A stretch of 64,000 nt of DNA from Liolophura sinensis (Eukaryota > Mollusca > Polyplacophora > Chitonida > Chitonidae): NCBI RefSeq assembly GCF_032854445.1, contig NC_088297.1, forward strand, positions 13,877,335-13,941,334. The letters run 5' to 3'. This document shows, in pieces, positions 1,408 to 64,000 of the stretch. The number at the start of each line of letters is the position of its first letter. Within the stretch, counting starts at the first letter, position 1. The position numbers and the translations under genes were made by a program. The notes beneath the pieces are model-generated. The model ran no database searches. It was not told where the DNA came from and was given only the letters and a program-made list of their open reading frames with translations.

Positions 1408-4400
1408 ATGGAGTTACGGGAACTTTTTATCCAGTTCAGCGTCCTGCTGATTTTTTGTTCAACATCGAGTCTATCGCAAGGTAAGTACCTCTATACCCTC
1501 ATAACTTCGGATCATTATATGAAGTTTAGCTACACTTTGGACAACAGGGACTATCTGAAATGTAACCAAAATCGGCGTTTAAGTATAGCCTGTACTTACG
1601 CTTAAATATTATTTAGAATAAAATTCTGCTTTAGTTCGCCGTCGACGATACTCCGGCGGCTCATTGCGCAATTTCACGCTGGTTGCTGACCACTTGTCTT
1701 CAACCAATATGGTCTGGACAAGATATGGCTGAAAGATTGCCGATGGAGAGTTCAGCCATAATCTATCATTCAACCAATATGGTGTGAATGTATGATGAAT
1801 ATGGGGAAGTTCGCAAGGACTTGCGAAATGTCGGTTTCTCCGGGCACTCCGGTTTCCGCCACCCAGGTGACTGCCGTCGTATGTAGCGGTGGGTGAAAAA
1901 TTCATGGACATGGTGATAAGTAACAATGAAAAACAAAAAAACAACAACAAAAAAATGTAAATAAATGTAAGATTGTAGGGTCGGCACTCAGGTAAACATG
2001 TAACTTGAGCATTAAGAAACAATGCATACAAGTCTCGTGTGTGGAAGCCCGTTAAGGCCATCATCCTTCCATTGCATTATCTTTCCATCGCTCTACGACG
2101 GAACGAAGCGATGACAGTACTGACAAACGATGAAATCGTACTGCGAAACGATGACACGATGACACGAAGTTTGGTCGAGAAATGAGACAATAGTGGGCCT
2201 ATGTGATGGCCTTAAGCGGCTTCCATACACACCCGTGTTACTTAACAGAATATAACAGAAAACTACTCTGACATCTTATATCTAAGCTGAATGGATCTGC
2301 TGCCAATTCCATGTTGTGCACAGTCACATAAAAGTCATGTTTTTTTGCCACGCCTGTAATTGTAACGGTTCCATTCAACCTAACCAGGCCTGTTATTAGG
2401 TAACAAGTTTCTCTAAGTAATACCTGTCGGTAGGACACCCGGTAGATCGATCCGTCGGTTTGTGGGCCGGTTAAGTTGTTAACATTTTGTCAAAATAACA
2501 TGCCAAAAAAAAAACAAAAAAACAAATGGGTCATTCAATAAAAGGGACATTAGTGTAATACGACACAAAAACCGGCCGCATGGGTGAATTTTAGCGAGAT
2601 ATTGACAATTTGTGCGCATTTACGCTTCTATTTTTGTTATTCAAGCTCATGTTCAGAGTCATAATGCGCTTCGATGCAATATTTTTTATTGGTGTTTAAA
2701 GCTGTACAAAAAGAATATTTCGCTCATACGACGGCGGTCAGCATTGTTGTAGGAGGAAACCGGGCAGGACCCGGGGGTTATAAGCAGTTTTCCAATTACT
2801 TCAATGGTTGTGATTAGCAGCGCCAGGCGCCTTTTTAAATGACCAGTCACCATTTAATTAATTTGCCGTTAACATTTGATTGATTACTAGTATCTCTTTT
2901 ATGGCCATGGTATAACCTGTCGTGTATCCCCTCCCCTCTCCCCCGCCCCCGCCCCCCGAGCTCTGTCAGGTTTCCTTCCATTATAGTACTGGTCACCGTA
3001 GTACAAGTGAAATATTCTTGAGCCATTTCTGCACGGAATGTATCGGTGGACAGGCTTAGAATGGATAGTGACGTTCCCGTTGAGATCGTCGTAGTGGCGG
3101 TTGACCATCCTTTATACAGCAATTAACACCTTTTAATAAGTCTTCATGAATGTACCTTTCTCACAGCATGCCGTTATCGACGAACTTACGCACATTGTCA
3201 TATATGCATGCCTTGGGTTCTAAAACACGTGTTGAACACAACATCTTTTGTTGTTTTTATTCAACATAGAAGTATGTTACCCCAACACAAACATGTGTTA
3301 AAGAAATGTGAAGTACACCATCAAGTTTGTGTTACAAAAAAATAAAACACAAACTTGTGTTGAACCAATATGAGGTAATTTTGCATATCATGCGCACTAA
3401 TGTTGGTACAACAAAAATTTGTATATAACATCCAACACACCTTGTGTTCAATTCTTTCAACACAAAGCCTTATGACTAGATGTACGAATGCTTGGGGTTA
3501 CTTAACATTTTTTCATTGATATCACGACGAAAAGTCATTAGGTGCGTGTACGTATAATGTACTAACACCGGCCAACCAGTCCTGCTTCTTTGTTCTAACC
3601 TCTCAGTGCTGAGAACCAAGCAAAGTAGCAACAAGTGTCACTTTCATTTTTATTTGACCCGGCTTGATCCCGGGTCTCCCGACTTTGAGGCGGATGCTCT
3701 AATCAATAGGCCACCGAAGCGGTCACAAGACTTTATGTTAATTCAAAACAAGAAAGAGTTGTTCAAATATGCCATAAAATTTTGTTGGAAAGAACACAAG
3801 ACTGTGATCATGTTTGTGTGCGTGTGTGCGTGTGCGCGTACGTGCGTGCGTGCGTGTGTGTGTGTTAAGGTTTGTTCCATGTACGAGAGACACTGCATAT
3901 TGGTGGTCATTTATACAGTTGATATTGACAAGAATTCGTATGAAATTATGCAGCAATTGCACCAGCAATTCGTATGAAATTATGCAGCGTTTGTACCAAC
4001 AATTCGTATGGAATTATGTAGCAATTGCACCAGCAATTCGTATGAAATTATGCAGCGATTGCACCAGCAATTCGTATGAAATTATGCAGCGATTGTACCA
4101 ACAATTCGTATGAAATTATGCAGCAATTGCACCAGCAATTCGTATGAAATTATGCAGCGATTGCACCAGCAATTCGTATGAAATTATGAAGCGTTTGTAC
4201 CAGCAATTCGTATGAAATGATGCAGCAATTGTACCAGCAATTTGTATGAAATGATGCAGCAATTGTACCAGCAATTCGTATGAAATTATGCAGCGTTTGT
4301 ACCAACAATTCGTATAAAATTATGCAGCGATTGCACCAGCAATTCGTATGGAATTATGCAGCAATTGCACCAGAAATTCGTATGAAATTATGCATGTAAC

Positions 4401-16464: not shown

Positions 16465-16564
16465 GTACAGGTGTCATGTTCATCATATCTAATGAAGAAG
16501 CTCATTTGTGGCAAATTGATAAATGGTGGCTTATTGAGACATGGGGGCTAATTGACACATGGTG

Positions 16565-17000
16565 ACTTACTGAGACAAGGTGGTTAATGGAAATATTGTG
16601 ACTGATTGAGACATGGTGGTTAATGGAAATATTGTGACTGATTGAGACATGGTGGTAAATGGAAATATTGTGACTGATTGAGACATGGTGGTTAATGGAA
16701 ATATTGTGACTGATTGAGACATGGTGGTTAATGGAAATATTGTGACTGATTGAGACATGGTGGTTAATGGAAATATTTTGACTGATTGAGACATGGTGGT
16801 TAATGGAAATATTATGACTGATTGAGACATGGTGGTTAATGGAAATATTGTGACTGATTGAGACATGGTGGTTAATGGAAATATTTTGACTGATTGAGAC
16901 ATGGTGGTTAATGGAAATATTGTGACTGATTGAGACATGGTGGTTAATGGAAATATTGTGACTGATTGAGCCATGGTGGTTAATGGAAATATTGTTACAG
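16565..17000. repeat. 36-bp minisatellite, about 11-12 copies
   Basis: The unit has GGTGGTTAATGGAAATATTG followed by TGACTGATTGAGACAT, repeated with very few changes. The length is a multiple of three and the minus strand has no stop in two frames, so it looks open there. I see no start, splice or domain context that would make it a gene. It begins right after the 3' end of the EGF-domain gene. Confidence 0.95.
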
Positions 17001-20395: not shown

Positions 20396-22993
20396 TCAGC
20401 TGGACATATTCTTCCGCCGTATGAGAAAAGGCTTCATCTGTCCATCTGCGTTAGTTCCAGAGTTTTCCGGGGAAGTATGGCGAGACTGACGAATGCATGG
20501 GAGCAAACGTCGGCCTTGGGTGAGGCGTCGTTTATCCATGAAGTCGCCATCTGCTATGCCACTTTTTCGTAGACGTCGCTCAGCGCAGCCGATGGGCCTG
20601 TCCTCTTGAGAACTGCTCAAAGAACGTGTCCTAGCACGCCTTTCGCTGGAGACGTCGCATTTCGTATCTAAACGTTGATCAATCAGCTCCCCTGGTAATT
20701 GTCTTGCTCGGCACAGTGAGGAAGATCGGAGTGAGCTGGTGGCAGGAAGTTTTACAAGCCTGCCTTCACGTTTTGCGTTGTCGTTAAAACCGACTTCAGA
20801 TTTACGCTGCGCCGGTAAAGAAAATTTAGCTCTTTCCCGATTCCTCACAAATGGAGGAGTGCTGTCATTATGGACGTTGTCAGCATCATGCATCGAAATC
20901 GAATTTCGTTGATATCGTGTCCCTTTCCAGTGAATATCCTTGCGGCTCCATTCTGTTTGAGAAGGTTTGCGGCACCGAATCACCAGCGGGTCATGAGCCA
21001 TTTCCACAGGGACACATTTAGAAAAGGGATCTCGTAGTGACTCTCGACGAAATGAAAGCTCATTCTTTCGGGGATCAGGAAAAGAATGAGTATGTGGACG
21101 GGTTGAATCGTGATGAAAATGGGCATGAATTTCCATGGAATCATGATCATCTTGAGGAAGGGAGCGTTGTGACACGTAGATATGTTTTGGGCACTGGGGC
21201 GACTGGAGATTGTAAGGAATGTCCACAGAATAGACAGTGCTACGTTGATCCCGCAGATTGTGAGTACACTGACGCCCACATGAACCATCAGGGGGAAAAG
21301 AAAGCTGTCTTGAATTAAGAGGAAAGGTCAGATGATCCCCCCTGCAGTTACTAGGGAATTCAAAGTAACAATCTATCTGATCACCGTCTTTAGACACGAT
21401 CGCTTTCTGCCCTGGAAGAAACTGGGAATGTTGAACGTTAAGCTGAATTTCGCTCTCTTGCTGGGGATGGGAACATTTGCGATCATGAAAAGAGCGTCTG
21501 TCCTCACACGTATTGCTGAAAAGACGAACATTTTTGCCGGAAGGATTTGAGATATGGGGGTTACTTTCAATGCGACTGTTTTCGAAGCGAGCATCTCTCT
21601 TGTCGCAAATTTCATTGAAGTGAGTTCGGACTACGTTGAAATGAGAACCTTTGTTGTCAGATACAGTGTTGATATGAACGTCATTGTTGCCTGGACGGTC
21701 TCGGTAATTACCAGAATATGCAAAACGGACTTCCCTTTTGTCATCCAAATGGTGATCTTGATCGCCAATCACTGCGTCAAATTCAGAATATATTTCGTCG
21801 TGATTATAAGTGAAGCGATGGTTTCCATTTCCATCGTTTTCAGCACATGGAGAACTAGACGGACTACGCGAAGGGATGCGTTTTTCTTGAAGTGCCGTTA
21901 ATGTTATTTCACGATGGTCATGAAAAGACGGGTCAATAAGTTTACGACTATGGTCCAGATAAGGGCATACTGAGTCAGCGGTTAAGTGAGAAACTTCTTT
22001 GCTATCGGTGTCTTCCTGTCTGAAATTCACATCAAACGAACTCTTGAAATCAATTGGAGGTACCAATGCTCGGTTGCCCAACTTCGAATACTTGGGTGGA
22101 GTAGGTAAATTTACAGGCGACACGCTGTTCGACCTTATGGGTGGAAGCGTCTTCCTGCCCATTTTTGGCGTGCCCTTCAAAGGAGGGAGAGGTGAGTCTG
22201 AATCCGATCTAGACGACGGTGTCAGTCGTAGATCTATCGGGCTGGACGTCCCTGAGAGGGAGGGAGCCGGGGTTAAGCTTCCTGGCGACAGGCTGGACGG
22301 GCTCAAGTCAACCCTTCTGTTCTCTTGAATAGTCCACTTAGTTGGAGAGGAGCAGGTGATTCCGATGGCAGGGAGATCTGACAGTATTTCCTGTCCCTCG
22401 GCCTGTTTTACGTTTGTGTGAGACGCAAGAGAGTTGTTGTTGTTTATGATGGATAAAGTCAGTCCGAGGCCATTTTGACAAGGAAAACTGCCCTCTGTAA
22501 TGACGGGGCCATTTCGTTCGAGTTCCGACAAATTTATGACTTGATCTTCTTCCGTTTTAAATGCATTGTCGTCTTTTTGTCTCTCTAATTGAAGCTGCTG
22601 CAGTTTAACGATGGTGGCGTTCAGATTTCCGGAGACTCGCATATCTACCCGCTGTGTTAGGGTCGACAGATTTCCGCCCAAGACAGACGACGGGTTGTTT
22701 CCTGCCTCTGTCACGTGAACTCTCTCCCGTGTCATCTGCTCGGTCGCCACGTGACCATTCACAATGTCGTTACCAGAGAAGTCCAGGTTAATGGAAGAGC
22801 TGGCAATGAAAGACCCTGGGGAACTAGGGGTGGACGCAAAGCTTTCTAGAAAACCCCGTTCTATATCGGACGCATCAGCGAGGATGTCGTCGTTGTGTGG
22901 GTCAAAAATGTCGTGAAATTTTCCAGTACGTTCAGTCGAACTTCCGTTAAACATTTCAGCGTTTCTCGGTTGGCCTCTTGACATTGTGTTAGC
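20396..22993 (-). CDS. Uncharacterised 862-residue low-complexity protein
   Basis: One long uninterrupted exon. I chose the ATG at 22984 because a strong acceptor (CTTTTTGCAG) ends at 22994 and the exon then reads GCTAACACAATG. Codons further upstream would lie in the intron. The stop is TGA at 20396-20398. The protein is hydrophilic, with no signal peptide, no membrane segment and no domain I recognise. An N-terminal acidic and Ser-rich part is followed by Pro/Ser stretches (residues about 230-320), then Asp-, His- and Arg-rich sequence, and an Arg/Ser-rich basic C-terminus. This looks intrinsically disordered. The ORF is far longer than chance in this genome and its codon use is not repetitive, so I take it as real. 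The exon could continue from an upstream coding exon in phase 0. A possible noncoding 5' exon ends in CATCAG|GTGAGT near 26402 on the minus strand. Function unknown. Confidence 0.75.
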   Translation of the reverse strand, partial: ANTMSRGQPRNAEMFNGSSTERTGKFHDIFDPHNDDILADASDIERGFLESFASTPSSPGSFIASSSINLDFSGNDIVNGHVATEQMTRERVHVTEAGNNPSSVLGGNLSTLTQRVDMRVSGNLNATIVKLQQLQLERQKDDNAFKTEEDQVINLSELERNGPVITEGSFPCQNGLGLTLSIINNNNSLASHTNVKQAEGQEILSDLPAIGITCSSPTKWTIQENRRVDLSPSSLSPGSLTPAPSLSGTSSPIDLRLTPSSRSDSDSPLPPLKGTPKMGRKTLPPIRSNSVSPVNLPTPPKYSKLGNRALVPPIDFKSSFDVNFRQEDTDSKEVSHLTADSVCPYLDHSRKLIDPSFHDHREITLTALQEKRIPSRSPSSSPCAENDGNGNHRFTYNHDEIYSEFDAVIGDQDHHLDDKREVRFAYSGNYRDRPGNNDVHINTVSDNKGSHFNVVRTHFNEICDKRDARFENSRIESNPHISNPSGKNVRLFSNTCEDRRSFHDRKCSHPQQESEIQLNVQHSQFLPGQKAIVSKDGDQIDCYFEFPSNCRGDHLTFPLNSRQLSFPPDGSCGRQCTHNLRDQRSTVYSVDIPYNLQSPQCPKHIYVSQRSLPQDDHDSMEIHAHFHHDSTRPHTHSFPDPRKNELSFRRESLRDPFSKCVPVEMAHDPLVIRCRKPSQTEWSRKDIHWKGTRYQRNSISMHDADNVHNDSTPPFVRNRERAKFSLPAQRKSEVGFNDNAKREGRLVKLPATSSLRSSSLCRARQLPGELIDQRLDTKCDVSSERRARTRSLSSSQEDRPIGCAERRLRKSGIADGDFMDKRRLTQGRRLLPCIRQSRHTSPENSGTNADGQMKPFLIRRKNMSS

Positions 22994-23704
22994 CTGCAAA
23001 AAGATTAAAACACCATTAAACACGATGGACTGACTAGTTGATTAATTGATTGATTGATGTTCAACACCGAACTGGGATAGTTTTCCGCTTACATCACTGC
23101 GGTAAGGTTTAATGGTGGGAAAAGCGAGAATGCCTGGGGTAAGACACTGACATTTACCTGAAAATACCTAAAAAATCCCGTCTAAAATCCATAGCAGAAA
23201 CAGTGAAAACTTGATTTGCAAAAGCGAACTCACTGGAAATACAAAATGGACAAGACAAAAGTTTCTGTGTATCAATCGTTATGACCAGTAATATTACATG
23301 TAAACTGTAACCGAGGCCCATTAACTATGTCGCAATTAATATTCCGTCCTCCAAATTACGAAGCATTCTTAGACTTAAGCCAAAATTTTAAGCATTATAT
23401 TTGGTATGTTCTTTTCCGTCAGATTAGCTGACATTTGTTGCGCAATAACATACCCAGAATTTACGTTTTGCGTTTTTATTTCGACCTTGTTACATTAGAA
23501 ATAACAATTTTAAAGCGATTTGAAATTTTAGCTTGAGTCTAAGAACGCTTCGTGACCCCGGGAGAGGATGTTAACATCTATTCCAGGAATACATTGAGTT
23601 GATGTACGGTTACACAATATACAACAGCATTCCTGCATTTGTTTCATTTAATTCTTTTTTGCTTATATTAGAGGTCTCAAAAAATAAATCAAATATGGTT
23701 TACG

Positions 23705-27898: not shown

Positions 27899-29160
27899 TA
27901 AACTGACGGCCAAAAGAAACTTTACGACTCCGTGAGTTAAATTTAACCAGCCTTTTCAGCAAAATATTAACAAATTATTGTAGGAAAACATTGTATGAAG
28001 CATATTCCTATGTGCGACAAGCGTCATATACGCCCACACGAAATTGTTTTGAGACAACGAAGAAAGTTCACGTGACCCATGGATGGCCGCAACTGCACAT
28101 GTAATAAGTGTATAAAAACGTTACACACAGTGTGCTGGATTTGCACACTGACTAAAAACCAACAAATTAACGCCTCGATTGACTCCAGAACAACGCGAAA
28201 GGGCCCTTGGTATGGTATCCATGGGAGCCACCCTTGCCTACATTGCAAGAACCTTCGGCTGCTCTCGTGTAACTGTGTCAGACTTGATGCAACGTTACAG
28301 ACAGACAGGGTAGACACCGCACAGGTCAAGAACAGGCAAGCCTAGGGTAACTACGCCAGAGAAGACGGGTACCTGCGCACCTTTCACCTGAGGAACTGCT
28401 TCCTGACAGTGATCTCATCGTCAATCAATGCCCTAGGTCACTGGGTTAGTCAGCAGACCTTGTCCAGGAGACTCATGGCTCAAGAATTAGGGCTTATCGA
28501 CCATTCAGAGGGCAGTTGTTGACAGCCGAACACCGTCGCCAGAGGTTGCGATGGGCTCGAATTGTATGCCGTTGGCAACAACGTGATTGGCAACGTGTTG
28601 TTTTCACGGATTCTCGGAACGAATGGCTGCATCATGCGTCCAGAAGGTGGTATCTTTTTGTGGCGGCAGCGTGACGGTGTGGGGTGGGATTTGTGGAGAT
28701 GAACGGACACCACCGGTCATCATCTACGGAAACCTTACAGCTCAACGTTACGTGGATGAAATTCTACGTTCTGCTGTCCTGCCATTCTTTCAACAGCAGT
28801 TCATGTGGTGTCCTGTACCAGCATGACAACGCCAGACAATCAGCATGACAACGCCAGCTCGAGTTGTGCAGAACTTCCTGGACGCCAACGGCTTGCCGTG
28901 GCCTGCACATTCCCCAGATATGTCCCCATAGAACACCTTTGGGATATCATGGGTCTTCGAGTAAGACAACGGCTACACCTTTCAGCCAACCGACAAGAAC
29001 TGGCGTTCGCTCTCCAAGATGAATGGCAACGACTCCCTGGTCATCTCATCATACGACTGACTTTCTATGCGTCGGAGAGTTTTTGCATGCATTGAAGAAG
29101 GGGGTGGCCACACGCGATATTGATTGGTTTTGATATTGACTGATTTGAACAATAATCAAC
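27899..29160 (+). mobile_element. Tc1-like DNA transposon, 3' end truncated
   Basis: The left end begins after a TA with AACTGACGGCCAAAAGAAAC, which matches both ends of the element at 37764-39024. The transposase is on the plus strand but broken into frames. A helix-turn-helix region at about 28170-28310 reads [21 protein letters not shown] with [23 protein letters not shown] blocks follow: [14 protein letters not shown] (28640-28690), HDNA (28828-28845) and [17 protein letters not shown] (28925-28980). The C-terminus is near 29095. Homology to copy 2 ends near 29155, so the right terminal repeat is gone. An AGCATGACAACGCCAG duplication at about 28821-28858 interrupts the reading frame. Non-autonomous now. 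Confidence 0.85.
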
Positions 29161-34885: not shown

Positions 34886-37800
34886 TTAAACGACGGGTGT
34901 GACGGCGACCGCCATGCTTTCCATGCTACATTCGTCCGTTCCCCGGCGGATCCGGAAATAGCCCTTTTCTCCCCATTTCTCTCCCCAACTGTTCTTAACA
35001 GTCCAGAATTTTTCCCCAGACGCTTTGTCTTGTCCATAGCCAACGACAAGAACCACGTGGTTAGTGATCTCCCACGGGTTGAAGTGATCCTGGAGTCCCG
35101 TGTGATGGTAGATGCCACCCTGGAAAGAAAACAAACACGATATGATTTGTGCACTCTCATAACATCACACTTAAGAATATAGTCACTTTTAAGACGTTAG
35201 TTTCTGGACAAAAAGGAATTTATTAGTAACGTTTCCTGCTTGAACTAATTTGGATCAAATCTGTGAACAGTGTACTGTTCATGAACTGTTTCAACACCAG
35301 TAAGAATCATTATCCGATACAAAAATGCATGCTGGGTATTGCTGACATGATTTAGATGTAGACACGTCTGTCCAAGATCCAGAGACAAGGCGCTTAAAAC
35401 TCCTGTGGCCACTTGTTCAAAACTGTATTAAAGTTAAGCCAGACCTAAATGTTAACACCAGTCTCAAAGTAAATGAGACTTTAGTCTGGATTAACGTTAA
35501 TACCGGGCTTCCTTCTGAAAACACGTTTGAACAACTGGGCCCAGAGCACCAAATCACATGCCATGTAACGTCATCTGCTTCTTTTTTAATCCTTAAAACT
35601 ACTCGATCAATTTCTGGTTTGCGGTCGCTGTGAGTTCAAGTCCAGGTCATGTGGCTTCCTCTCCGGCCTAACGTGGGAAGATCTGCCAGCAACTTGGGTC
35701 GTGGGTTTGACCCGGTTCTACCCGGTTTCTTCCCACCGTAATGCTGGCCGTATAAGTGAAATATTCTTGAGTACGGCATAAAACAACAATAAAAATGTCT
35801 GGTTACATTCTGTATACATGTTAGACAACTGGGTAAAATATATGATGTCTTTCTTTTATCATGGAAGGCTGGAAAAAGCCAAAGTACGAGAGGCATACTG
35901 TCATACTACACGTTTCACGTAAACAAACGCATCATTTCCAAAAGTAAGTGCCAGCACGGCAGTCTAACGGTAGATACAGTATGTCCTATACTTCGACATT
36001 TACAGGTGAGCGGGTGCCTCTTATGCATTACATGACAGTTTTGGACGCCTTCACTAAAATTCCCCAGATTTTGCCTTACACCCAGAGAGATTTCCTTCTT
36101 ATACACTTTTTAGAGTTTTTAGAAGACATTATAATAATGATGATTTGGTGTAGCATAATTTAAAGGTATATCGACGCCTTTTCTTAGTATATATTCCAAT
36201 AACACATGACTTCTTGTTTGCCTCGTTTCTGCTAAAACCCCAAAATATTTTTTTTTCGAATTTTAGTTTTACAGCATATATTTATCAACAAAGTCACAGT
36301 CAGTTAAAAAACCACATTGTCAGTAAAAAAAACACAGAAAATTATATCTAAACCTGTTTTTACTTATTCTATTTAGAAATGTTTTTTCAACTAAATGTAA
36401 ACAAAGTTTTTTTCTACTTCAATTCTTTTAAATTTCACTAGTGTTCTATCTATTTTAGCAACAAATTAGCTATTCCAACATTAAATACGATGTTTGGCAA
36501 CGTCTGCAACGTCACTGACACCTAAATGGTTTAACAGGTATACCTTGGAATTCAAACATTTGCATTCTTTTTCAGTCGGTCCACACATGAAAGAAAATAG
36601 ATGACGCTGGTTAGTTCTTGTTTTTATTCGTTGGCCATTTCAAAATTTTATTATGAGAGATAAGTACCTATGAGCAACAGCACGGTAATAACTAAAAGAA
36701 CATAACACAACATTTAACTAAGGAAACATATGAGACATCTCCAAGTATATTCGCAATGTACATATCTACCTTGTAACTTTGGAAATCCGAATAAACTTCA
36801 AAGCTGATGGCAACGGGTCCGTTCTTGACAAGTTCCATCCTCATGAGAGGTTCGTTGCAGGCTCCATAGTACCCGCCGATGTAGTAATAGTCTGTCGTGT
36901 AGTGTCGCCGGCACTTCGTCTTCTTACACGGGCTCTCCTTGCCCGTGTACGGAAAACAAGACTCCTCAATCACACCGAAGTCCTCACCGTATTTACCTTT
37001 AAAAGGAAACAATATGTAAATGTATGCATGTTTGGGGTTTTACGTTGTACTTAACAAGTTTTCAGTCATATGACGACGATAAAAGAAAAGATAACACTAG
37101 GTAAAATGTATACATGCCTCGATCAAGTATCCAATATATAAGTATATATAATATAAAGTTTAAAAGTAAACCTTTTTATTTTGTGATGTTGCACAACTGA
37201 GATACTGTATAACCTAAATTGAGCAAAATCGGGCACAATGAGGAAATCAAAATCGCGCACATTTAGAAAATCAGAACTGCCACCATTTTATCCATTTTAA
37301 CCAATCAGGCGCAAGTTATTTCTATAGCCCAAGATCACCGGCCCCACCCAAACCGTGACTTGTCTTTTAGCCATATGGTGTATACGAGTGATGTGACTAC
37401 TGCCATGGCTTCATAAAAAATCCTGATTAAAATCTGATATACAGCGGACAAGTTCGAAATTGTTGTGTCCGTTTAGGTCTGTTTCCAACTCTTTATCGAA
37501 ATAAATGATGTTAAATGATGTTGACTTCACTTTGAAATATGACATACAGCGACTCACTGATTGACCATTTGCTGACACTACAAAGAGAAGCAAATCTTGT
37601 GATTCATCATCATTGAGCAGCAGTGCCCTCTACCTATTTTAGTAACACCATCAACGCATTCATCAGAACTTTCCTGACTATGACATCAAGGAATGAATGA
37701 TTATGGCTTAACGCCACATCGGCAATATTTCAGCCATATCGTGGCGAACAAGGAACTATCAACTAAAATGACGGCCCAAAGAAACTTTACAAAGAGTTCA

Positions 37801-40800
37801 AATCAATTTATTTTGCCAAAGCAAAAAACAGGATGACTGAAATTTAATATATTGAAAAGACCAATGCCTAAAGATATTGAAAGTCTTGAGTAAGAACGGA
37901 CAAAGTAGCCCTCAAATCATTTTACAAGTGAACAAACAGAGCAGGGGTAGAAAAATAGCCATTCAATCTTGGTTAACAATGGGCAGAGTATACAAAAAGT
38001 TGATTATTTTTAAAATCAGTCAATATCAAAACCAATTAATATCGCGTGTGGCCACCCCTTGCTTCAATGCATGCAAAAACTCTCCGACGCATAGAAAAAG
38101 TCAAGTGTCTGATGACGTGGGATTCGTTGCCATTCATCTTGGAGAGCGAACGCCAGTTCTTGTCGGTGGGCTGCAAGGGGTGGCCGTTGTCTTACTCGAA
38201 GACCCATGATATCCCAAAGGTGTTTTATGGGGGAGATATCTGGGGAACGTGCAGGCCACGGCAAGACGTTGACGTCGTTGGCGTCCAGGAAGTTCTGCAC
38301 AACTCGAGCTGTATGGGGTCTGGCGTTGTCATGCTGGTACAGGACACCACATGAACTGCTGTTGAAAGAATGGCAGGAAAACAGGACGTAGAATTTCATC
38401 CACATAACGTGAGCTGTTAGGTTCCCGGAGATGATGACCAGTGGTGTCCGTTCCTCTCCACAAATCCCACCCCACACCGTCACGCTGCCGTCACCAAACG
38501 GTACCATCTACTGGACGCATGATGCAGCCATTCGTTCGCCTCTTCGATGGTAAACTCGCTGTCTTCCATTGGCTCGGAACAGGCCCTAATTCCGTGAGCC
38601 ATGAGTCTCCTGTCTGTCTGTAACGTTGCATCAAGTTTGACACAGTTACACGAGAGGAGCCGAAGGTCCTTGCAATGTGGGAATGGCTGGCTCCCATGGA
38701 TAACATACCCAGGGCCCTTTCCCGTTGTTCTGGAGTCAATCGAGGCATTATTTTGATGGTTTTTAGTCAGTGTGCAAGTCCAGCACACTGTAACGTTTTT
38801 ATACACTTATTACTTGTGCAGTTGCGGCCATCCATGGGTCACGTGATTTTTCAACTTTCTTCGTTGTCTCAAAAGGTTGTCTCGTGTGGGCGTATATGAC
38901 GCTTGTCGCACATGGGAATATGCTTCGTACAATGTTTTCCTACAATATTTTGGTACTAATTTGCTGTAAATGCTGGTTAGATTTAACTCACGGAGTCGTA
39001 AAGTTTCGTTTGCCCGTCAGTTTATATGCTTTGTTAGTCTGATTGGTGTTTTACGCCGTGCTCAAAAATATTTCATATACGAGAGTGGCCAGCATTATGG
39101 TGAAATATAACCAGGCAGAGCTTGGAGGGAACCCATGACCATTCGGGGGTTATTGGCAGACATTCCCTAGTACAACTGGACGTATAGTGTATGTCAAACT
39201 CCACGGATATTTTTCCTGAACATGAAGTCCTAACTTTCATTTTACCATGATGGACTTGCACAACTCAGTTTTAAAGTTTTAAAGTTCAGAATAGGTCTGA
39301 CTTAAGTCTTGAACAGCTTCGTCGTCCTGGGGCCAGGAAGATGAGAATCTTAGATTTAGTCAGATTTTAAAATCGGAATGTCTCTAGGACAATTTTACCC
39401 CTATTTTTCTATCTCTCCCATGTTAACTTCGCTAGAATAGTATGTCTCAAAGACAATGATACAAGCCCATAGCCAAACCTATGAACGAAGTAGATGTATG
39501 TTAGCTATATGTCAAAGTAACCGTTCAGGGGACATATTTATCACAGTCTTAAGACTACATTTAAAATGACGTTTAAAATGTGTACAATGGTTCTTTAATA
39601 CAATACAATGTACCAATCACAATTTGAATTCCTTCTTGTTCTGACGTTGGCTTTTGAAAGCAATTGCATTTTATGATCTTACGTTGCTTAATAAACACGA
39701 ACCCTGGTCTTACCAGCAATTAGATAGGGGAACCCTCCTTCACAGGCTTGGGCGTACTCGGAACAGCTGACCGCATCCTGAGTGGAAAACACCGGTTGGC
39801 GGGAATTGTTCGTCAAAATTCGGGTCCTAGCTTCCAGCATCGCCATGGATCCGAAGGCGTAGCAGCTTCCGCAGCTCTGCTGGTTACGCACTGGTGAAAC
39901 GTAATTGACGCCGTTGACGTCGCGCCAGTCAAACTCATCCGGGAGTTGTCCAGAAACTGCAAGAAGGAAGAAAAGACATCTCTCACAGCACAACTGTCAC
40001 CAAATGGCACTGTATGATGACTTTCAGTTGTATTAAGAAAAACTGACTGTTATTTAATGCCATACCTAGATCACTTACAAAGATGGAGGTCAGTTTCATA
40101 AGTGGATGATACCGCAGTGCCCCGCGGAAAACCAATGACCTTTACAGACGAACTTTTCCGAACGACTGTCGCCGACTGCTTATTGTCACCAAGGCCCTAT
40201 ATAAGCAAAGAGAGCCAACCACGAATTCCCTGTTGAAAGCCGGGTTTAATTCCGCACTTCGTGTTACTCCAGTATACTGGGCAGTAATGTTCACACACAG
40301 CACCATGAACAGTACTGCGTAGTAATACAGTGCAGCCCCTGTACGGTACTTTATACCTTATGGAACTGCGTGTAAAGCGCACGAACAGAACTGCCAGGTA
40401 ACCGTGTCGTACTGTGCAGCTGCTGTACGGTACGTTATACCCTGTGAAGCTGCATGTAAAACACACAAACAATACTGCATGAACTGCATCTCATTTCTAC
40501 TTACTCTCCTCTTGATATTTAGTGATGGGGGCGGGCCTTGGGTAGGCTCTGGCCGACCGCCTTCCACCTCCTCGCTGATGAAGATCTCTCAGTGACATAC
40601 CCTCGTACCCCGCATACCTTCCCGCCACCCAGGACGTCTGAACGACGTTAATAGCTGAAAGTCACATATTAGTAAATTTATTTACTTGATTGGTGTTTTA
40701 CGCCGTTTTCAAGAATATTTCACTTATATCACGGCGGCCAGCATTAAGGTGGGGGGAAACCGGACAAAGCCCGGGAGAAACCTACGACCATCCGTATGTT

Positions 40801-47180: not shown

Positions 47181-50100
47181 CTAAATATATGGACAGGATG
47201 TAGACTGTTTCCCGTACACTTGTTCTAGTTTGTCAATTAAAGAGTTTTTCTCCACTGGAGAAGTAAAACTCGCTTCTGCGGCGTTGAATATCTGAAACAG
47301 AAACGGGGCAAAAGTGGACTATAATTAAAATTTAAAAGAAAAACCAACAAATGTCATAGATAGTCATTTCGAAAGGGGAGTTGAAACGAGACAGCGTTCC
47401 TGTGACGTCTAGGCGAGAAACAACTACGCTCTCGGAGTATATAAATAACGCGTCTGCTTGGTAAAAATTTAAAACACTTCTTATTTAAGATTCACATTTC
47501 TTATCTAAGAACAGTTCTTATTTAAGATTCACGTTTCTTATCTAAGAACAGTTCTTCATTTGAAATGCAATATTTGTGTGCCGTATGAAAAAAAAGTTTT
47601 AATATCTTTTCACTCAAGCGGAAAATGGGACTTAAATCAATGAGTAACACAGCACTATATGTATATATGCACGTATAAATGACTTACACACGTTATCAGC
47701 TTATCTTCGGAAATTCCCATCTCCTTGGCAAACTCAAATTCCTTTGTGAGATTTGTGTCACAGGGAAGAGGGTCGTCGCTGTTTATGGAAAAATTGGTAT
47801 CATCGTCAGAGAACCTACAAGTACAAAAAGGTGGCCCACTGAACAGTATGCGAGAGAGAAAGGTGGTACAATGAACAGTATGTTACAGAAATAGGTGTAC
47901 CATGAATAATATGCCAGAGAGAAATGTGGTACGATAATAAATTTGCCAGAGAGAAAGATTTTTTTTTTGAAAAATGAAGAAAATGCCGAAGAGAAAGGTG
48001 GTGCAATGAAGAAAATGCCAAAACGAAACTTAGTACAATGAACAGTTTGCCAATAAGAATGTTGGTTCAGTGAAAATTATGCAAGTAAGAAAGTTGGTAC
48101 AATGAACATTATGCAAATGAGAAAGTTGGTATAATAAACAATATGAAAATAAGAACGTTGTTACAATGAAGAGTATGCCATTCAGAAAGTTGGTGCAACG
48201 AACAGTATGCCGATAAGAAAGTTGGTACAATAAACAATATGCAAGCAAGAAAGTTTGTTCAATAGAGGGGTGGGGCAGTAAACAATTAGCTCGGCAAAAT
48301 GTGGTGCAATAAATAATTAGTCAGACAAATAGGCAGTGAAATAAACACTTTGTAAGAGGGAAAGGTGGTGCAATAAACAATTTGAAAGAGAGAAAGGTGC
48401 AACAAAGCACAATTTGACAGACAATACTTCGCCAGAGGAAAAGGTGGTACAACGAACATTTAGCTAAGTAGCCTTCAGAGAACGGCATTACAGTGAACAA
48501 CTGGCAGGTTGCTTTAGCGATTAAGGTCGACGGTGGTGGTACAATGACCTGTTTGCGACACTGTTATAACGTATGCCAAGGTAATGTGATGAACTATTTG
48601 CCAGATTGCTTTAGCAATTCTCGTATTTGTCTGATTGCTTTAGCCATTCCGGTGGAGAGAGATGTTACAATGAACTATCTGTCACATTTTCTTAGCCATT
48701 CCGGTGGAGAGAGATGTTACAATGAACTATCTGTCACATTGCTTTAGCCATTCCGGTGGAGAGGGATGTTACAATGAACTATCTGTCACATTTTTTCAGC
48801 CATTCTGGTGGAGAGAGATGTTACAATGAACTATCTGTCACATTGCTTTAGTCATTCTGGTGGAGAAGGGTGATCCAGTGAACTATTTGCTATTTGCTCT
48901 GAAGTACAGTGAACAATTTGTCACATTGCTCTAGTGATTCGGGATAAAAATGATGGTATAGAATGAACTATTTCCAAGATAGCTTTGCCCTTTTGCGAGA
49001 GAAAAATTCAGTACAATAAATAACTTAAAACAGCGCCTTTAGAGATTCGCCAGTTAGAAAGATGGTGCAATAAACAACTTGCTGAACATCGTTAGATTTG
49101 GAAATGGAAGGAAACAGCGGAGATATAGTGCGCTTCCCGCCAGGTTTATCAACTGGCACACTCTGTTTCATTCTAAATGATTCATCCACCTAATTCTGTT
49201 TTATTTTTTTTCGAAAACCTTGACTAATTTCTTATCAAAAACAGTATCATCAAAAAAGTCATTTACGACCTTTGTGAACTTCTGAAAGTGCAGTTTTATG
49301 TACCAAACTTCAAATTAAATACAGTGATGGTAATACAAACCGTTTAGCAGGATGAAGCGAAAGGTTGGTGGCAGCTTCTGGACACGCTCCAGTTAGCACA
49401 GAGGAGTTGGGACAGACCTCAAAATGGATGCCCTTTTCACAAAGCTCTCTATACAACTTCAAATCATCCAAGACATGGTACCCATGGCCAATTCTCTCCG
49501 CGTAAAATAGATTGACAGCCTGTTAGCAAAAATGTCTCTTTAACCGATACGCGATAACCGTTTAATTGAACTGAATGATTGACTGAGTGGCCAAGTTATT
49601 AGGAATTCTTTTCACAAACAAAATATAGAAGTAATTTGCTAAAAAGTATAGCGTTTATTTTTTAAAACAGTGGTACATCAAAGTGTGGGAAAAGGCTTAA
49701 GTCTGGGAATAAAGCCAAACTATTACACCTATCAGATGAGAAATGCTTTGTAACATATTCTTTAATTGTAACAATACAATCCACCTTACCAGATCCACAG
49801 AATTAGAATCGCCCACTTCCCCAGCGTGCATAGTACGATGTATCCCTGTCTGGTGAGCTTTCTGGAACATTATATATAGTATTTACATCAGGTCTGGTGA
49901 GCTTTTTGGAACATTATACATATTTTTTACATCTGCTCTGGTAAGCTTTCTGGAACATTGTATATAGTTTTTACATCAGCTCTGGTGAGCTTTCTGGAAC
50001 ATTGTACATAGTTTTTACATCTGCCCTGGTGAGCTTTCTGGAACATTATATATAGTTTTTACATCTGCTCTGGTAAGCTTTCTGGAACATTGTATATAGT

Positions 50101-53100
50101 TTTTAAATTTGCTTTGGTGAGATTTCTGGAACATTGTATATACTATCTACATCTGGTCTGGTGAGCTTTCTGGAACATTATATACAGTATTAACATCTGG
50201 TCTGGTGAGCTTTCTGGGACATTATATACAGTATTAATATCCTGTCTGATGAGCCATTATATATAGTATCAGCATCTAGACTGGTAAATTTTCTGTGACA
50301 TTATATACACTATTAACATCTGGTCTGGTGAGCTTTCTGTGACATTATATATAGTATTAACATCTGGTCTGGTGAGCTTTCTGGAACATTATATACAGTA
50401 TTAACATCTGGACTTGTGAGCTTTCTATGACATTATATACAGTATTAATATCCTGTCTGATGATCTTTCTGGAACATTATATACAGTATTAACATCTAGA
50501 CTGGTAAATTTTCTGTGACATTATACACAGTACTAACATCTGGTCTGGTGAGTTTTCTGGAACATTATATATAGTATTGACATCTGGTCTGGTGAGCTTT
50601 CTGGGCCATTATATACAGTATTAACATCTGTTCTGGTGAGCTTTCTGTGATATTATATACAGTATTAACATCTGGTCTGGTGAGTTTACAGGAATATTAA
50701 CTAAACATTTTGGTGTTTTCCAGTGTATGCCAGTCTGAAAGGAAGCCTTTCTGTAACATTTAATACAGAATTAACATCGCCAGTTGCATGATGGTCTGAT
50801 GAGGTTAGTGTATAAGAATTAGCATAGAGCTGACATCGTCCAGAGAATGTCGGTTTGACGTCCGGTATATGCCCGCCTTGTCAGCTTACTGTTAGCACAC
50901 AACTGACATCGTCCATCCAGTGTTTTCTGGTCTGGTTAGATCTTTGCCAGTGTGAAACTGCTCCCCAATCTTCACCCCCTGCCCCCACCTACCCACTTGT
51001 ATATTTACGATCTGGCCTAAGGCTTAACGTCGCCAGCAACATTATATCGAAAACAAAATTCAGACGTCTGGCCAAAGAAATAAGTGGCGTAAATCATACA
51101 GATAAATGACATGATTGCAAAGACCTTTGTGGATGATCCACCTTGTTGACGAGGCCGACATGTAAATGGTGTCTACGCAACCACAGTGCTATGTACGTTA
51201 CATGTATATCAAAGTCGTAAATATTTACCTCAGTAAAAATTGAAATTGTGCAAACTGTAGCAGAATATTAGTTACCCTGAACGCCTCCAGGTGACATGAT
51301 GTGTTGGCGTCTGCGTTGCTGGAGGGCTCGCCTGAGGCCAAGTCAATGGCGACCACGCCCTGATTTCTAAACTCCTCACAGAGCTGGTAGACTTCCAGGG
51401 ACCATTCTGTACAAATCAGTAGCAAAAAGGACTTTACCAGATTCTGCTTTCGACTTTGGATGATTTTAAGATGCCCAGAATACGGAAAAAAGCATAGCCC
51501 AGCTTATATATGGAATAATTTGAGTAAAATTTTAGAGTAAAATAAATTACAGTGTAATGAAGTTATAATGTGCTAGCGCAAATTAGCACCGACTAAAACT
51601 TAAAATGGCGTTAACATGGATGCGACACTCGGGGGTGTTGTTTCAAATCGAGATTTGGACAGGGACTTCTTGGGACTAACCTGCCCCCACTGTTCTTGAG
51701 ATTGCTGAAAGTCTGTTACATGCTTGCAAGGCCATGCATGTGGTCTTATGTGAATTTCGTTGGAGAAAAGTTTTCTTTTAGTGTTATGCGAACCGCATAT
51801 AGGACCACGCTTTGCGAGGGAAAATCTGTCGGAAAGTTTGTCAGTTACTCGCCAAAAGTGAGGGGTTTACTCCAGGCAGTCCAATTTCCTGAAACCATGA
51901 AACTGGTCCCAGTCGTATGTAAGCTAATTATTCTTGAGCGCCGCGTTAAAATCTAATAAAAAACACCTAAGTGGATGGAATGAAAGAAACCATTTTACAT
52001 GTGGTGTATTCCGCGGCCATTATTTAGATTTATTGTTATACATAGATACCGAATATACTGATTAACTGATTGCACCACACCTAAAATTCACTAATTTACC
52101 CACTAAATTTACCTGGGTTATCCAGCAGACAACATAGTATTGATTTCGCGGTGATGCCAAAGTCGTATGACCCTTTTTTAAACGCATCTGAGATTGTTTC
52201 CACAACATTGCGAGCTCCGAAACTTCCGGTGATCGGAGAATAATAAGGTTTCGGGCTGTCATTCGCTAAAATATGCGGACTGTAGCGGGCTTCCACGTAA
52301 CAGATTTTCTGCTTGGCACAATCCTCGCAAAATTCATACGCCATTCTCCACACGGCCTCAGGGTCACCTCTGCGAACATGACAAAAATGGACAATACATA
52401 AAAATGTTAATTTGACGTAAATTACAATATTTTCTAACCATTTCATACATGTAAAGTGTTGAATTTCTAACATCTAATGCTTCGAAAGTGTTAACCTATA
52501 CATAAATGTTTTTTTCTCCTCGATGCACTAGGGCCACAATGTTGGATTTAATATTGTTATAGCTATGCATAGCATTTCAGTTTCCTCTCATCATAATGCT
52601 GCCTGCCGTCGTATAAATGAAATACATATATTCTTAAACACGGCGTAAAACAACAATCAAATAAATAATTAAATAAATCAGAGAAAATTTCGTAAACTTT
52701 TTGTACTCACGCTACACACGGCATGAAAACTCCGAATGTGTGCAGGAACTCTAGGAAATTTCCTGGCCGTTTGTATACACACATATGCTTCTTCAAGTCC
52801 TCCAGGTTGTTCGCCGGAAGGCGCACTCCACGTTTTCTAAATCAACACAAAGAACTTACAGATAATGCGCATATTTACCGCATTATTTTCTTTCTTTCTT
52901 TCACACAAAAAAAGAGTAAGAGTAATAATCTAATATAACCATCGTAATACCCCATCCCATATTCTCTAAATGCATATGTGTACAAAAAATACACAACATG
53001 TGTACCACAGAAGAACTGCAACAAATTTGCACAGGAACATGAATGTGTGCACTTTACATCCATCATTCATAGGTGTGTACACATTTAATGTGTACCAAAT

Positions 53101-56100
53101 TGTGTACCTGTGCTACACACCTTGTTTACATCGTGAGCTACGCAAACACATGTATGTGTACGAAACGGTAAACATATGTTTTTGAGGGTACTTTTACTCT
53201 CATATCAACTCGTATTATTATAGACTTCTTTGGTGTTTAAATAGTAATTTATAGTTTGTCAGTTTTAACAGAAAGCCTATTACCTGAGTGATGCTAAAAT
53301 GTATTTTACTATAGCTGCAGATTATTCCTGGTTGTTTGACCTTCACCTTGGCGGTTGTTGTTGATGCTTGATGGTAGCGGATTGGAGGTTGGTTTGGTCG
53401 TTGTCGATGGCGGATGTCTCATACCTAGTATACATGCAGGTTGGCTAATAGCTGTTGATTTATTTATTTATTTGGTGCTTTAGGTCGTACTGAGGAATAT
53501 TTCAGTTATACGACAGCGGCCAACATTATGGTGGAAGGAAACCCGACAGAACCCGGGGGAAACGCACGATCATCCGCAGGTTGCTTCCACGTACGGCCGG
53601 CGGGGAAGAAAACATGAACTAGCGCTGGACTTAAACTCGCAGCGACTGCACAGGTAGGAGGTTCCTGAGGCCCCATGTTGATTCATGATGGTATGGATGC
53701 TGTTGGTGTGCTGTTTACAAAGCAGTTGATTGATGGTATATAAGTTGTCTTGTGTTATGGTTAGTTCATGATAAATTAGTTTGTATATATAGTATGGTAT
53801 GTTTTATGAAGAATTCATTGAAAATGGGTTGTTTTCGTTGTTTGACGGCATGATCGAGTGTAGTTTACCTCGTGATTATTGACCTAAACTGATGTGTTAG
53901 TTTGGAGATTATGGTTGTAGCAGGGCAGGGTAGTTCAAAGCTGTTTGAAGACTTAATACCAGATTAAACTTTAACCCAATGAGCCCCAAAATAATTGCAT
54001 AACAGTATATTAAATATGAACTAAGTCCGCTGCGGTTATACTTTAGACTTTGGCCAACTGCATTGGTTGCTGAAGTTGGCTAAAATCTTAACTATAAAAA
54101 TTTGACTGAATACCTGTATTAGCTAATAGATTTTCGAACAACTGGGTCCTGTTGATGACGATTGTTCCATGCTGGTTGGTGTTGGGCTGTCTGCCTCTTG
54201 ATACAAGGTTTTATTAATTTGCTGCTCTATACACAGATTGTTAAAACTTACCAACGTTTTATCAACGTTTTATCAACGTTTTACCAACGTTTCACCAACG
54301 TTTTATCAACGTTTTGTCAAAGAATATTAGGATATTATCAAAGAAGTACATGTACTTCACCCTATGGGCCAAATTATCTCTACCTCGCACAACACGACGG
54401 TTATTGTGAACATACAGCTTGGGTCATCCAACATATATACATTTATACTTACTTCCCTAACTCCAAAACAGTCTCGGGCCGAATCGCTCCATCCAAATGA
54501 ACATGCAACTCGACCTGCAGGTAAAGTAAAATTTACACATCTGAAGCAATATTTTTACGCTAAAAGAAAGCTAAAATATGAAGTAAGTTTCATCATACAG
54601 ACAACTGAAAACTATGCGTAAAAATTCTTTCATTTATTTTTTTTTAAAATGTTTTTAAACAGTATTGAAAGACATTCAAATACTTGAATACAGTGGTGGG
54701 ATTTATGAACCATACTGAAAGTATCAAGGAACTCTGACGTCACATCACCTTTTTATTCTGATGTTCACCAGAAGGAAGGAATTATTGGGAACGTTATTTC
54801 AATAATCTTTTACTCATGGGTAAAAACAGTTATTCTAACATTCAGTGCCGTGATTAGAGTTGGAGAAACTTACTGTGTCGTCAGAGTTCCTAATCTCCGA
54901 TAGTATGGTCCATAAAGCTCACCTTAGAACTTAAATGTTTGAGCGCCTTTAACTCTTTTCACAAAAAAAAATCTAAAAAAATAAATAAAAGATAATTTTT
55001 GCATAGTTTTAAGTGATCTGTTTAACTGATGCCTTCTTCGGTTTGTAGAGGTCTTTTCCATCAAATGACGACAATACCATATAAACGACGGAGACACGAA
55101 AGCATGCATTTATATAATTTTAGTGCATTTGCACTTATTAGTGCACTTTCTTCTATTCCTTGACAGTTACAAATTCTGGGTTGAAGAAAGCAGAGTGCCT
55201 CTGAATGCGACACACCCTCTCCGGCCATTCGTTCTTACAGAATGGACAATTCCCATCTGGTGTCAATTATCTGGCTGATTTTAAAAAGGCAAGCTACGTA
55301 TATAGTTTTATTTCTTAATCAATTGAATTAAAAGATCTCTGTGGAATCGGGTATGTGTAGTTCCTCTCTCTCAGAGTCAGAATGCATGAGAAGGAACAAA
55401 ATGCACGCCTACGCTTTTGTCACAATAATAGAATAATATTAATGAACTACATTCTTTCATATCTGTAATCCTCTCCTTGTCAACACTACTCGTGTAGCCT
55501 AATGTTTACAAACGGGGCCAAGGGAATCCGTGTCTAACAATGGATAGGGTCCTGGCGAAGCACAATGACGCAGGAGCCTCTCACCAATACGGTCGTCGTG
55601 AGTTCAAGTTCAGATCATGCTGGCTACCTGAGCGTGTATGAATACAGTTAACCTTTCAGCGTTATACCACTTTAAATCCCCGAACAATTATAACGGACGT
55701 GTTATGGTCAGATTTTTATTAAATATTTGCTCTGTAACAAATAAACTACAGTTAACCTGTTTGATTAATTATACCGTTCTTCACAGTAATTTATCTAATG
55801 CCAAGATTGCCGTGTTTCTGGATTAATGTTCTTGGAGGCGTATCTTGAGTTTGTATATATATTTAACGTCAGTGTTGCATAATGGTATGTACATATGCGT
55901 GGGCCCTGGATGTTTATGTGTAGGCCTATATTTGAATATGCACATGTAAGGCCCATGTATATTGACTGGGCATAACTGAATATGACCTACATATAACTCT
56001 GAATATAACGGTACATTGATCGAGTTCCGGACTTAGCTAATGTAAGCCAATGCAAATGCATGTATACAGGATGGTTTGTACAGTATATAGAGCATGGGTT

Positions 56101-60448: not shown

Positions 60449-63400
60449 GCATTCTGATTGATTCTCCCCCGACTTTGTTTCTCCACAACATGTATTCTGA
60501 TTGGTTGTCCAGTATTCTGTTTCTCCACAACATGTATTCTGATTGGTTGTCCAGTATTCTGTTTCTCCACAGCATGTATTGTGATTGATTCTCCACTATT
60601 CTGATTCTCCACAACATGTATTCTGATTGATTCTCCACTATTCTGATTCTCCACAACATGTGTTCTAATTGATTCTCCAGTATTCTGATTCTCCACATCA
60701 TGTATTCTGATTGATTCTCCAGTATTCTGATTTTCCACAACATGTGTTCTAATTGATTCCCCAGTATTCTGATTCTCCACAACATGTATTCTGATTGATT
60801 CTCCAGTATTTTCTGATTCTCCACAACATGTATTCTGATTGATTCTCCAGTATTCTGATTCTCCACAACATGTATTGTGATTGATTCTCCACTATTCTGA
60901 TTTTCCACAACATGCATTCTGATTGATTCTCCAGTATTCTGATTCTCCACAACATGTATTCTGATTGATTCTTCACTATTCTGTTTCTCCACAGCATGTA
61001 TTCTGATTGGTTGTTCAGTATTCTGTTTCTCCACAGCATGTATTCTGATTGATTCTCCAGTATTCTGATTCTCCACAACATGTATTCTGATTGATTCTTC
61101 ACTATTCTGATTCTCCACAGCATGTATTCTGATTGGTTGTTCAGTATTCTGTTTCTCCACAGCATGTATTCTGATTGATTCTCCAGTATTCTGATTCTCT
61201 ACAGCATGTATTCTGATTGATTCTCCAGTATTCTGATTCTCCACAACATGTATTCTGTTTGATTCTCCAGTATTTTCTGATTCTCTACAGCATGTGTTAT
61301 GATTGATTCTCCAGTATTCTGATTCTCCACAACATGTTTTCTGATTAATTCTCCAGTATTCTGATTCTCCACAACATGTATTGTGATTGATTCTCCAGTA
61401 TTGTGATTCTCCACATCATGTATTCTGATTGATTCTCCAGTATTCTGATACTCTACAGCATGTGTTCTGATTGATTTTCCAGTATTCTGATTCTCCACAA
61501 GATGTATTCTGATTGATTCTCCACAACATGTGTTCTGATTGATTCTCCAGTATTCTGATTCTCCACAACATGTATTCTGTTTGATTCTCCAGTATTTTCT
61601 GATTCTCTACAGCATGTGTTATGATTGATTCTCCAGTATTCTGATCCTCCACAATATGTTTTCTGATTAATTCTCCAGTATTCTGATTCTCCACAACATG
61701 TATTGTGATTGATTCTCCAGTATTGTGATTCTCCACAGCATGTGTTCTGATTGATTTTCCAGTATTCTGATTCTCCACAAGATGTATTCTGATTGATTCT
61801 CCACAACATGTGTTCTGATTGATTCTCCAGTATTCTGATTCTCCACAACATGTATTCTGATTGGTTGTCCAGTATTCTGATTCTCCACAACATGTATTCT
61901 GATTGGTTGTCCAGTATTCTGATTCTCCACAACATGTATTCTGATTGGTTGTCCAGTATTCTGATTCTCCACAACATGTATTGTGATTGGTTCTCCAGTA
62001 TTCTGTTTCTCCCCAACATGTATTCTGATTGATTCTCCAGTATTCTGATACTCTACAGCATGTATTCTGATTGATTCTCCAGTATTCTGATTCTCCACAA
62101 CATGTATTCTGATTGATTCTCCACAACATGTGTTCTAATTGATTCTCCAGTATTCTGATTCTCCACAACATGTATTCTAATTGATTCTCCAGTATTCTGA
62201 TTCTCCACAACATGTATTCTGATTGATTCTCCAGTATTTTCTGATTCTCCACAACATGTATTCTAATTGATTCTCCAGTATTCTGATTCTCCACAACATG
62301 TATTCTGATTGGTTGTCCAGTATTCTGATTCTCCACAACATGTATTCTGATTGATTCTCCAGTATTTTCTGATTCTCCACAGCATGTGTTCTGATTGATT
62401 CTCCAGTATTCTGATTCTCCACAACATGTGTTCTAATTGATTCTCCAGTATTCTGATTCTCCACAGCATGTATTCTGATTGATTCTCCAGTATTCTGATT
62501 CTCCACATCATGTATTCTGATTGATTCTCCACAACATGTGTTCTAATTGATTCTCCAGTATTCTGATTCTCCACAACATGTATTCTAATTGATTCTCCAG
62601 TATTCTGATTCTCCACAACATGTATTCTAATTGATTCTCCAGTATTCTGATTCTCCACAACATGTATTCTGATTGGTTCTCCAGTATTCTGATGCTCCAC
62701 AACATGTATTGCGATTGGTTGTCCAGTATTCTGATTCTCCACAACATGTATTGTGATTGATTCTCCAGTATTCTGATTCTCCACATCATGTATTCTGATT
62801 GATTCTCCAGTATTCTGATTCTCCACAAGATGTATTCTGATTGATTCTCCAGTATTCTGATTCTCCACAAGATGTATTCTGATTGATTCTCCAATATTCT
62901 CATTCTTCACAACATGTATTGTGATTGATTCTCCAGTATTCTGATTCTCCACAACATGTATTCTGATTGGTTGTCCAGTATTCTGATTCTCCACAACATG
63001 TATTCTGATTGGTTGTCCAGTATTCTGATTCTCCACAACATGTATTGTGATTGGTTCTCCAGTATTCTGTTTCTCCCCAACATGTATTCTGATTGATTCT
63101 CCAGTATTGTGATTCTCTACAGCATGTATTCTGATTGATTCTCCAGTATTTTCTGATTCTCCACAACATGTATTCTGATTGATTCTCCACAACATGTGTT
63201 CTAATTGATTCTCCAGTATTGTGATTCTCCACAACATGTATTCTGATTGATTCTCCAGTATTCTGATTCTCCACAACATGTGTTCTGATTGATTCTCCAG
63301 TATTCTGATTCTCCACAACATGTGTTCTGATTGATTCTCCAGTATTCTGATTCTCCACAACATGTATTCTGATTGATTCTCCAGTATTCTGATTCTCCAC

Positions 63401-64000
63401 AACATTTGTTCTAATTGGTTGTCCAGTATTCTGATTCTCCACAACATGTGTTCTGATTGATTCTCCAGTATTCTGATTCTCCACAAGATGTATTCTGATT
63501 GATTCTCCACTATTCTGTTTCTCCACAGCATGTATTCTGATTGATTCTCCAGTATTGTGATTCTCCACATCATGTATTCTGATTGGTTGTCCAGTATTCT
63601 GATTCTCCACATCATGTATTCTGATTGGTTGTTCAGTATTCTGATTCTCCACAACATGTATTCTGATTGGTTGTCCAGTATTCTGATACTCTACAGCATG
63701 TATTCTGATTGATTCTCCAGTATTCTGATTCTCTACATCATGTATTCTGATTGATTCTCCACAACATGTGTTCTAATTGATTCTCCAGTATTCTGATTCT
63801 CCACAAGATGTATTCTAATTGATTCTCCAGTATTCTGATTCTCCACAACATGTATTCTGATTGGTTCTCCAGTATTCTGATTCTCCACATCATGTATTCT
63901 GATTGATTCTCCACAACATGTGTTCTAATTGATTCTCCAGTATTCTGATTCTCCACAACATGTATTCTAATTGATTCTCCAGTATTCTGATTCTCCACAA
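60449..64000. repeat. 42-bp satellite array, runs off the window
   Basis: The unit is ATTCTGATTGATTCTCC, AGTATTCTGATTCTCC and ACAACATGT (17+16+9), repeated roughly 80 times. It is itself a degenerate dimer, because ATTCTGATT and GATTCTCC each occur in both halves. Variants include GATTGGTTGTCC for GATTGATTCTCC, loss of the 16-base middle between the two GATTCTCC copies, and a 2-base TT insertion. The minus strand is free of stops in all three frames over long stretches, so it gives long artefactual ORFs such as a repeated ENQNTGESIRIHVV. Confidence 0.97.

Follow-up and report, generated by a model that had tools for sequence, protein, structure and literature searches.

The ADA gene and a minisatellite at one of its acceptors

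The minus strand of the window, by which we mean the entire 64-kb stretch of Liolophura sinensis DNA analyzed here, carries an adenosine deaminase (ADA) gene. Eight of its coding exons could be placed by tblastn with human ADA as the query, and the first coding exon was not found in the window. Joined at canonical splice sites, the exons yield an open frame of 354 codons followed by a stop; the product matches solved ADA structures (best E value, 2.8e-92), with residues 1 to 349 aligned, and the exons match the ADA1-type adenosine deaminase model of Pfam (PF00962) above its cutoff. The NCBI database holds a 316-aa protein from this chiton (here P0001), named “adenosine deaminase-like isoform X2 [Liolophura sinensis],” which is 42 to 52% identical to 22 ADAs and all 316 residues of which sit letter for letter inside our translation. 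This isoform begins at a methionine within the exon at 52711-52836 and is without the VELHVHLDG segment encoded at 54453-54514. That segment presumably holds the metal-binding HxH motif, in which case isoform X2, if real, would be without HxH.

The exon of interest is the one termed exon 6 in the first-pass annotation, a label that we retain (Table 1). It aligns throughout with the 22 other ADA proteins and is conserved ADA coding sequence. Its start had been placed at 49861, and this call stands, being upheld by the open 354-aa frame, by the alignment with the 22 ADAs, and by P0001, which is identical to the translation across the junction and reads EAFR/KAHQTG there (a slash marks the junction throughout). 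With the exon letters that follow, the acceptor reads AATGTTCCAG/AAAGCTCACCAG, and the acceptor used in the NCBI gene model is likewise the one at 49861, the last copy of the repeat described below.

Table 1. Features at the exon 6 boundary of the chiton ADA gene (window coordinates)
Feature	Position	Strand	Details and basis
Preceding ADA coding exon	51276..51406	-	Donor AGG/GTAACT
Tentative diverged copy upstream of the array	50747..50777	-	Junction 50750; AG kept
44-bp minisatellite	49848..50699	-	Overlaps first 14 exon bases; TRF, junction-register walk, profile search
Five-unit block (units 12-16)	50364..50583	-	Duplicate of 50153-50363
Five-unit block (units 7-11)	50153..50363	-	196/220 aligned columns same as in 50364-50583; 9/220 gaps
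Copy shortened by a 9-bp deletion that takes its AG	50244..50274	-	Junction 50248
Copy adjoining the true site	49889..49932	-	Junction 49905; acceptor reads CCAA, AG lost (AA instead)
True acceptor AG	49862..49863	-	AATGTTCCAG/AAAGCTCACC; last ladder copy; frame, homology, database protein
ADA coding exon (exon 6)	49790..49861	-	72 bp, KAHQTGIHRTMHAGEVGDSNSVDL; donor CTG/GTAAGG; tblastn, frame, P0001, alignment of 23 ADA proteins
Following ADA coding exon	49341..49519	-	Acceptor CTAACAG; frame joining

Across this acceptor lies a minisatellite whose unit itself spans the intron/exon boundary, with about 27 nt from the end of the intron and about 17 nt from the start of the exon kept in register. 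TRF assigns it a period of 44, 19.6 copies, 83% matches, and a score of 990. A walk in the register of the junction recovers 18 copies on the upstream side of the true acceptor, of which 17 have the full length; their first base after the AG position runs from 49905 to 50644 in steps of 44 nt, apart from one step of 35. A half copy without the AG lies at 50688, beyond these 18, and a profile search added a diverged copy farther upstream, off the 44-nt step, which we regard as tentative because its score of 12.2 bits (E value, 0.0078) is barely above those of unrelated matches in the window (up to 11.4 bits; Markov-sampled controls, 7.6 bits). Hence, the ladder of about 19 copies of the exon 6 boundary that had been noticed from the letters is real, and most copies do keep the AG, as had also been stated (16/18). 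When the 17 full-length copies are compared with the true boundary, the part derived from the exon is on average 93% identical to the exon over its first 12 nt and the part derived from the intron 88% identical over 27 nt, so that the former is preserved no less well than the latter.

Since the exon is conserved ADA coding sequence, we infer that the exon boundary gave rise to the array, rather than the reverse. A segment across the acceptor of the ADA intron, with its portions of intron and exon, would have been duplicated in tandem and then amplified by further duplications, the five-unit block among them. The most downstream copy alone would have stayed attached to the rest of the exon, and the earlier copies would have become part of the intron as potential decoy acceptors. 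The block duplication is a sign of turnover and shows that the length of the array has changed; further, two units, at 50169 and 50380, match each other at every position (44/44).

Copies of this boundary were found at this single place in the genome searched (609,464,459 bases in 632 contigs). A 23-nt junction pattern, with up to two mismatches allowed, has 14 matches in this 609-Mb assembly, namely, the true site and 13 copies, all within the array, and the reversed pattern used as a control has none; hence, the array is not a product of chance. The array DNA, in a search that skips simple repeats and very common words, likewise matches only itself in the assembly. The latter may be a revised version of the published HiFi chiton assembly, with some scaffolds differing slightly in length; the published one comprises 609,495,693 bases in 632 sequences and is named Liolophura japonica, a name that differs from that used by NCBI (PMC11068029). 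Within the ADA gene, 16 exon edges were compared (15 at splice junctions, plus the edge at which the last coding exon ends): copies matching at 30 or more of 44 positions occur at one edge, and the other 15 edges have none, with matches peaking at 24/44, so that boundary copies mark 1 of the 15 splice junctions. None of 120 hit edges at 60 other loci (30 kinase and 30 P450 loci, the best 30 of 138 and the best 30 of 99 matches, respectively) has two or more copies at 25/30, a bound that is loose because many of these edges do not coincide with splice junctions, neighboring exons or close paralogs occur among the loci, and the loci are the best-scoring matches only. At two of the 120 edges the best match was 25, and ADA exon 6, as the positive control, returned 15 copies by the same test.

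Strength of the potential decoy acceptors and the predicted outcome of their use

The true acceptor does not stand out from its copies. In positions -20 to -5, it has 9 pyrimidines of 16 and the 18 copies have 7 to 9 of 16, which bears out the earlier remark that the real site has no better pyrimidine tract. An acceptor matrix gives the true site a score of -1.6 and the 16 AG-bearing copies scores of -4.5 to -0.9, three of them above that of the true site. The same matrix ranks the true site 32nd of the 101 AGs in its intron and those of the other six ADA introns 16th, 1st, 4th, 2nd, 3rd, and 1st, and given this ranking of true sites we treat it as a rough guide only. On the transcript strand the array holds 72 AGs, and in the 99 nt that immediately precede the true site AGs occur at distances of 32, 40, 71, 74, 76, 84, and 88 nt from it. 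The last of these belongs to the nearest intact boundary copy, the other within-unit AGs being closer. Hence, the image of a spliceosome that must pick the last of some twenty near-identical sites has to be corrected, in that the copy adjoining the true site has lost its AG and the nearest intact one is 88 nt off.

If all other splicing is normal, use of any of the 16 in-register AG copies leads to a premature stop within 37 codons, in agreement with the proposal that mis-splicing to the copies would be unproductive. The stop predicted at the eighth codon is found for 9 of the 16 copies; for the remaining 7 it falls at codons 6 to 37. Five AG copies keep the frame, and these too stop early.

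We also considered whether the copies are sequestered by RNA folding. This was rejected, as the array folds no better than dinucleotide shuffles, 18 of 20 and 181 of 200 of which fold equally well or better (z values of +1.41 and +1.32); inverted repeats of length 20 or more are absent from the array-bearing intron. Within the unit, the two AG columns are conserved in 17 and 16 of the 17 full copies, which hardly exceeds the mean over the unit (15.1), and a count of 17 is attained by many other columns as well; hence, there is no clear selection on a decoy function.

Lancelet mirages and the likely behavior of the array

The closest parallel comes from the lancelet “mirage” minisatellites, which are tandem copies of intron/exon boundaries described from the globin genes BflGb6 and BflGb9, Adh3, troponin C, and PGBD5 (PMC3087553, PMC3902484). 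According to those reports, regular splicing is not disturbed by the mirages, one of which lies at a 3′ boundary. The globin report adds that the copied signals could serve as cryptic sites, that copies at the edge of the BflGb6 cluster are left out of homogenization, and that the Adh3 mirage shows somatic instability (PMC3087553); in the other report, the PGBD5 duplications are described as imperfect and troponin C is cited as a further case (PMC3902484). Like the mirages, the chiton unit spans an intron/exon boundary and is repeated in tandem, its splice signals are kept in many but not all units, and the array shows turnover, as seen in the block duplication and the identical units. Unlike them, it resides in a chiton (Polyplacophora, Mollusca) and in ADA, whereas the earlier reports concern cephalochordates. 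Its unit is 44 bp, against 150 to 160 bp in BflGb6 and 10 to 72 bp in Adh3, and it has 18 upstream copies, against 6 and 3 units in the BflGb6 haplotypes. Splicing is reported to be normal in the lancelet cases, whereas the chiton array is known from its sequence and a gene model. We take the cephalochordate host as the range of the earlier reports and not as a defining property of mirages; the ADA array belongs to a type of structure already described, here in a lineage new for it, and, by analogy with the mirages whose anatomy it has, we expect it to work as they do. No mollusc or ADA case of a boundary-copy array was found in the openly licensed literature, searched mostly by title: the available portion of a paper on Conus gene structure describes none, and none of the papers that touch on adenosine deaminase together with minisatellites and splicing has a title concerned with such a structure.

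Two other systems offer partial parallels. In a model discussed in the globin report, introns are gained by tandem duplication of proto-splice sites (PMC3087553). There, too, splice-site-bearing segments are duplicated at exon edges, but chiton ADA has acquired no new intron, an existing one having been lengthened at its 3′ end. In NAGNAG and other tandem acceptors, a few competing AGs lie nucleotides apart, often with productive outcomes. These share with the chiton array the competition between neighboring AGs, but the chiton copies follow one another at 44 nt, and none of the 16 tested would be productive.

Taking these findings together, we propose that this is probably a mirage-type minisatellite in a mollusc, a boundary array whose last copy is chosen and whose upstream copies see minor use, with a nearly neutral overall effect; most likely, the array is passive and gives rise to some unproductive splicing at most. 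By exon definition, the last copy would be chosen mainly as the sole copy attached to the coding exon, whose donor lies 72 nt away. Use of the upstream copies would be minor and the early-stop products would be degraded, such that the array as such would be close to neutral. The choice of the last copy in the NCBI model, which is a gene model and not a set of reads, would support use of the normal site. The copies lying 88 to 176 nt upstream would not clearly be kept out of use by exon definition alone, and leaky acceptor choice is plausible inasmuch as the real acceptor is weak and, by the acceptor matrix, no better than its copies. One possibility, which we consider unlikely, is that a substantial share of transcripts is spliced to the copies and lost by nonsense-mediated decay, such that the array lowers ADA output in an unregulated manner. 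The AG retained in 16 of 18 copies, the early stop that follows from each of these, the lack of any advantage of the true acceptor, and the lack of RNA structure hiding the copies are all consistent with such leakage, but the true site is the one used in the NCBI protein model, the nearest copy is without an AG, and splicing is reported to proceed normally at lancelet mirages that carry AG/GT signals.

The same anatomy, along with the change in array length indicated by the block duplication, could be read as a putative copy-number-tunable or regulated splicing switch, but the near-average conservation of the AG columns points to no clear selection on decoy function, and we hold this to be very improbable. 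A related notion that we regard as rather improbable is a dose control in which each 44-bp copy would add an unproductive acceptor and ADA mRNA would fall stepwise with array length. Such control would be variable in the germ line and perhaps also somatically, as reported for lancelet Adh3. That the array is an assembly artifact or the boundary wrongly called is barely credible: tandem arrays can indeed be misassembled, but the HiFi reads of the published assembly average 8,347 bp at 14X and are longer than the 0.85-kb array (PMC11068029), the units differ from one another, and frame, homology, and the database protein concur on the acceptor.

If the mirage reading is true, lancelets are not the only animals with boundary-duplicating minisatellites. 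The chiton ADA locus would then offer a natural test of acceptor choice in an intron that holds 16 nearly identical copies with an AG, each of them with a readable, unproductive outcome. The array also shows how an intron can be lengthened at its 3′ end with the exon left intact.

Other repeats and genes in the window

Several further arrays occur in the window. A shared origin with them was rejected, as the 44-bp unit is unlike seven other consensus units (lowest shuffle P value, 0.16; 300 shuffles). A later ADA intron, the one that precedes the exon at 47688-47814, is largely taken up by two arrays (47827-48421 and 48634-48866) whose 32- and 52-bp units resemble each other as relatives; they end 12 nt from that exon, and the stretch at 47827-48420 has only 4 AGs on the transcript strand, versus 72 in the 44-bp array. 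A 42-bp minisatellite, situated upstream of the ADA exons identified, extends for 3.5 kb to the end of the window (60451-64000) and contains long minus-strand open frames of up to 475 aa. A 36-bp array of 13 copies (16508-16995) lies inside a 206-aa minus-strand open frame with ISINHHVSISHN repeats, and a 34-bp array of 13.6 copies (3933-4394) can alternatively be read with a 102-bp period.

Rfam and tRNA scans of the window returned nothing. A second match to the ADA Pfam model (L004) was not recognizable by tblastn with the chiton ADA protein and was dropped. An 881-aa open frame on the minus strand (20396-23041) has no Pfam match at an E value of 0.001. The open frames at 28587-29095 and 38064-38507 look like pieces of Tc1/mariner-type transposases, judging from a motif that we take to be characteristic of them. 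Finally, the minus strand carries cathepsin-like exons of the papain family (PF00112) at 34886-35164 and 39688-39996.
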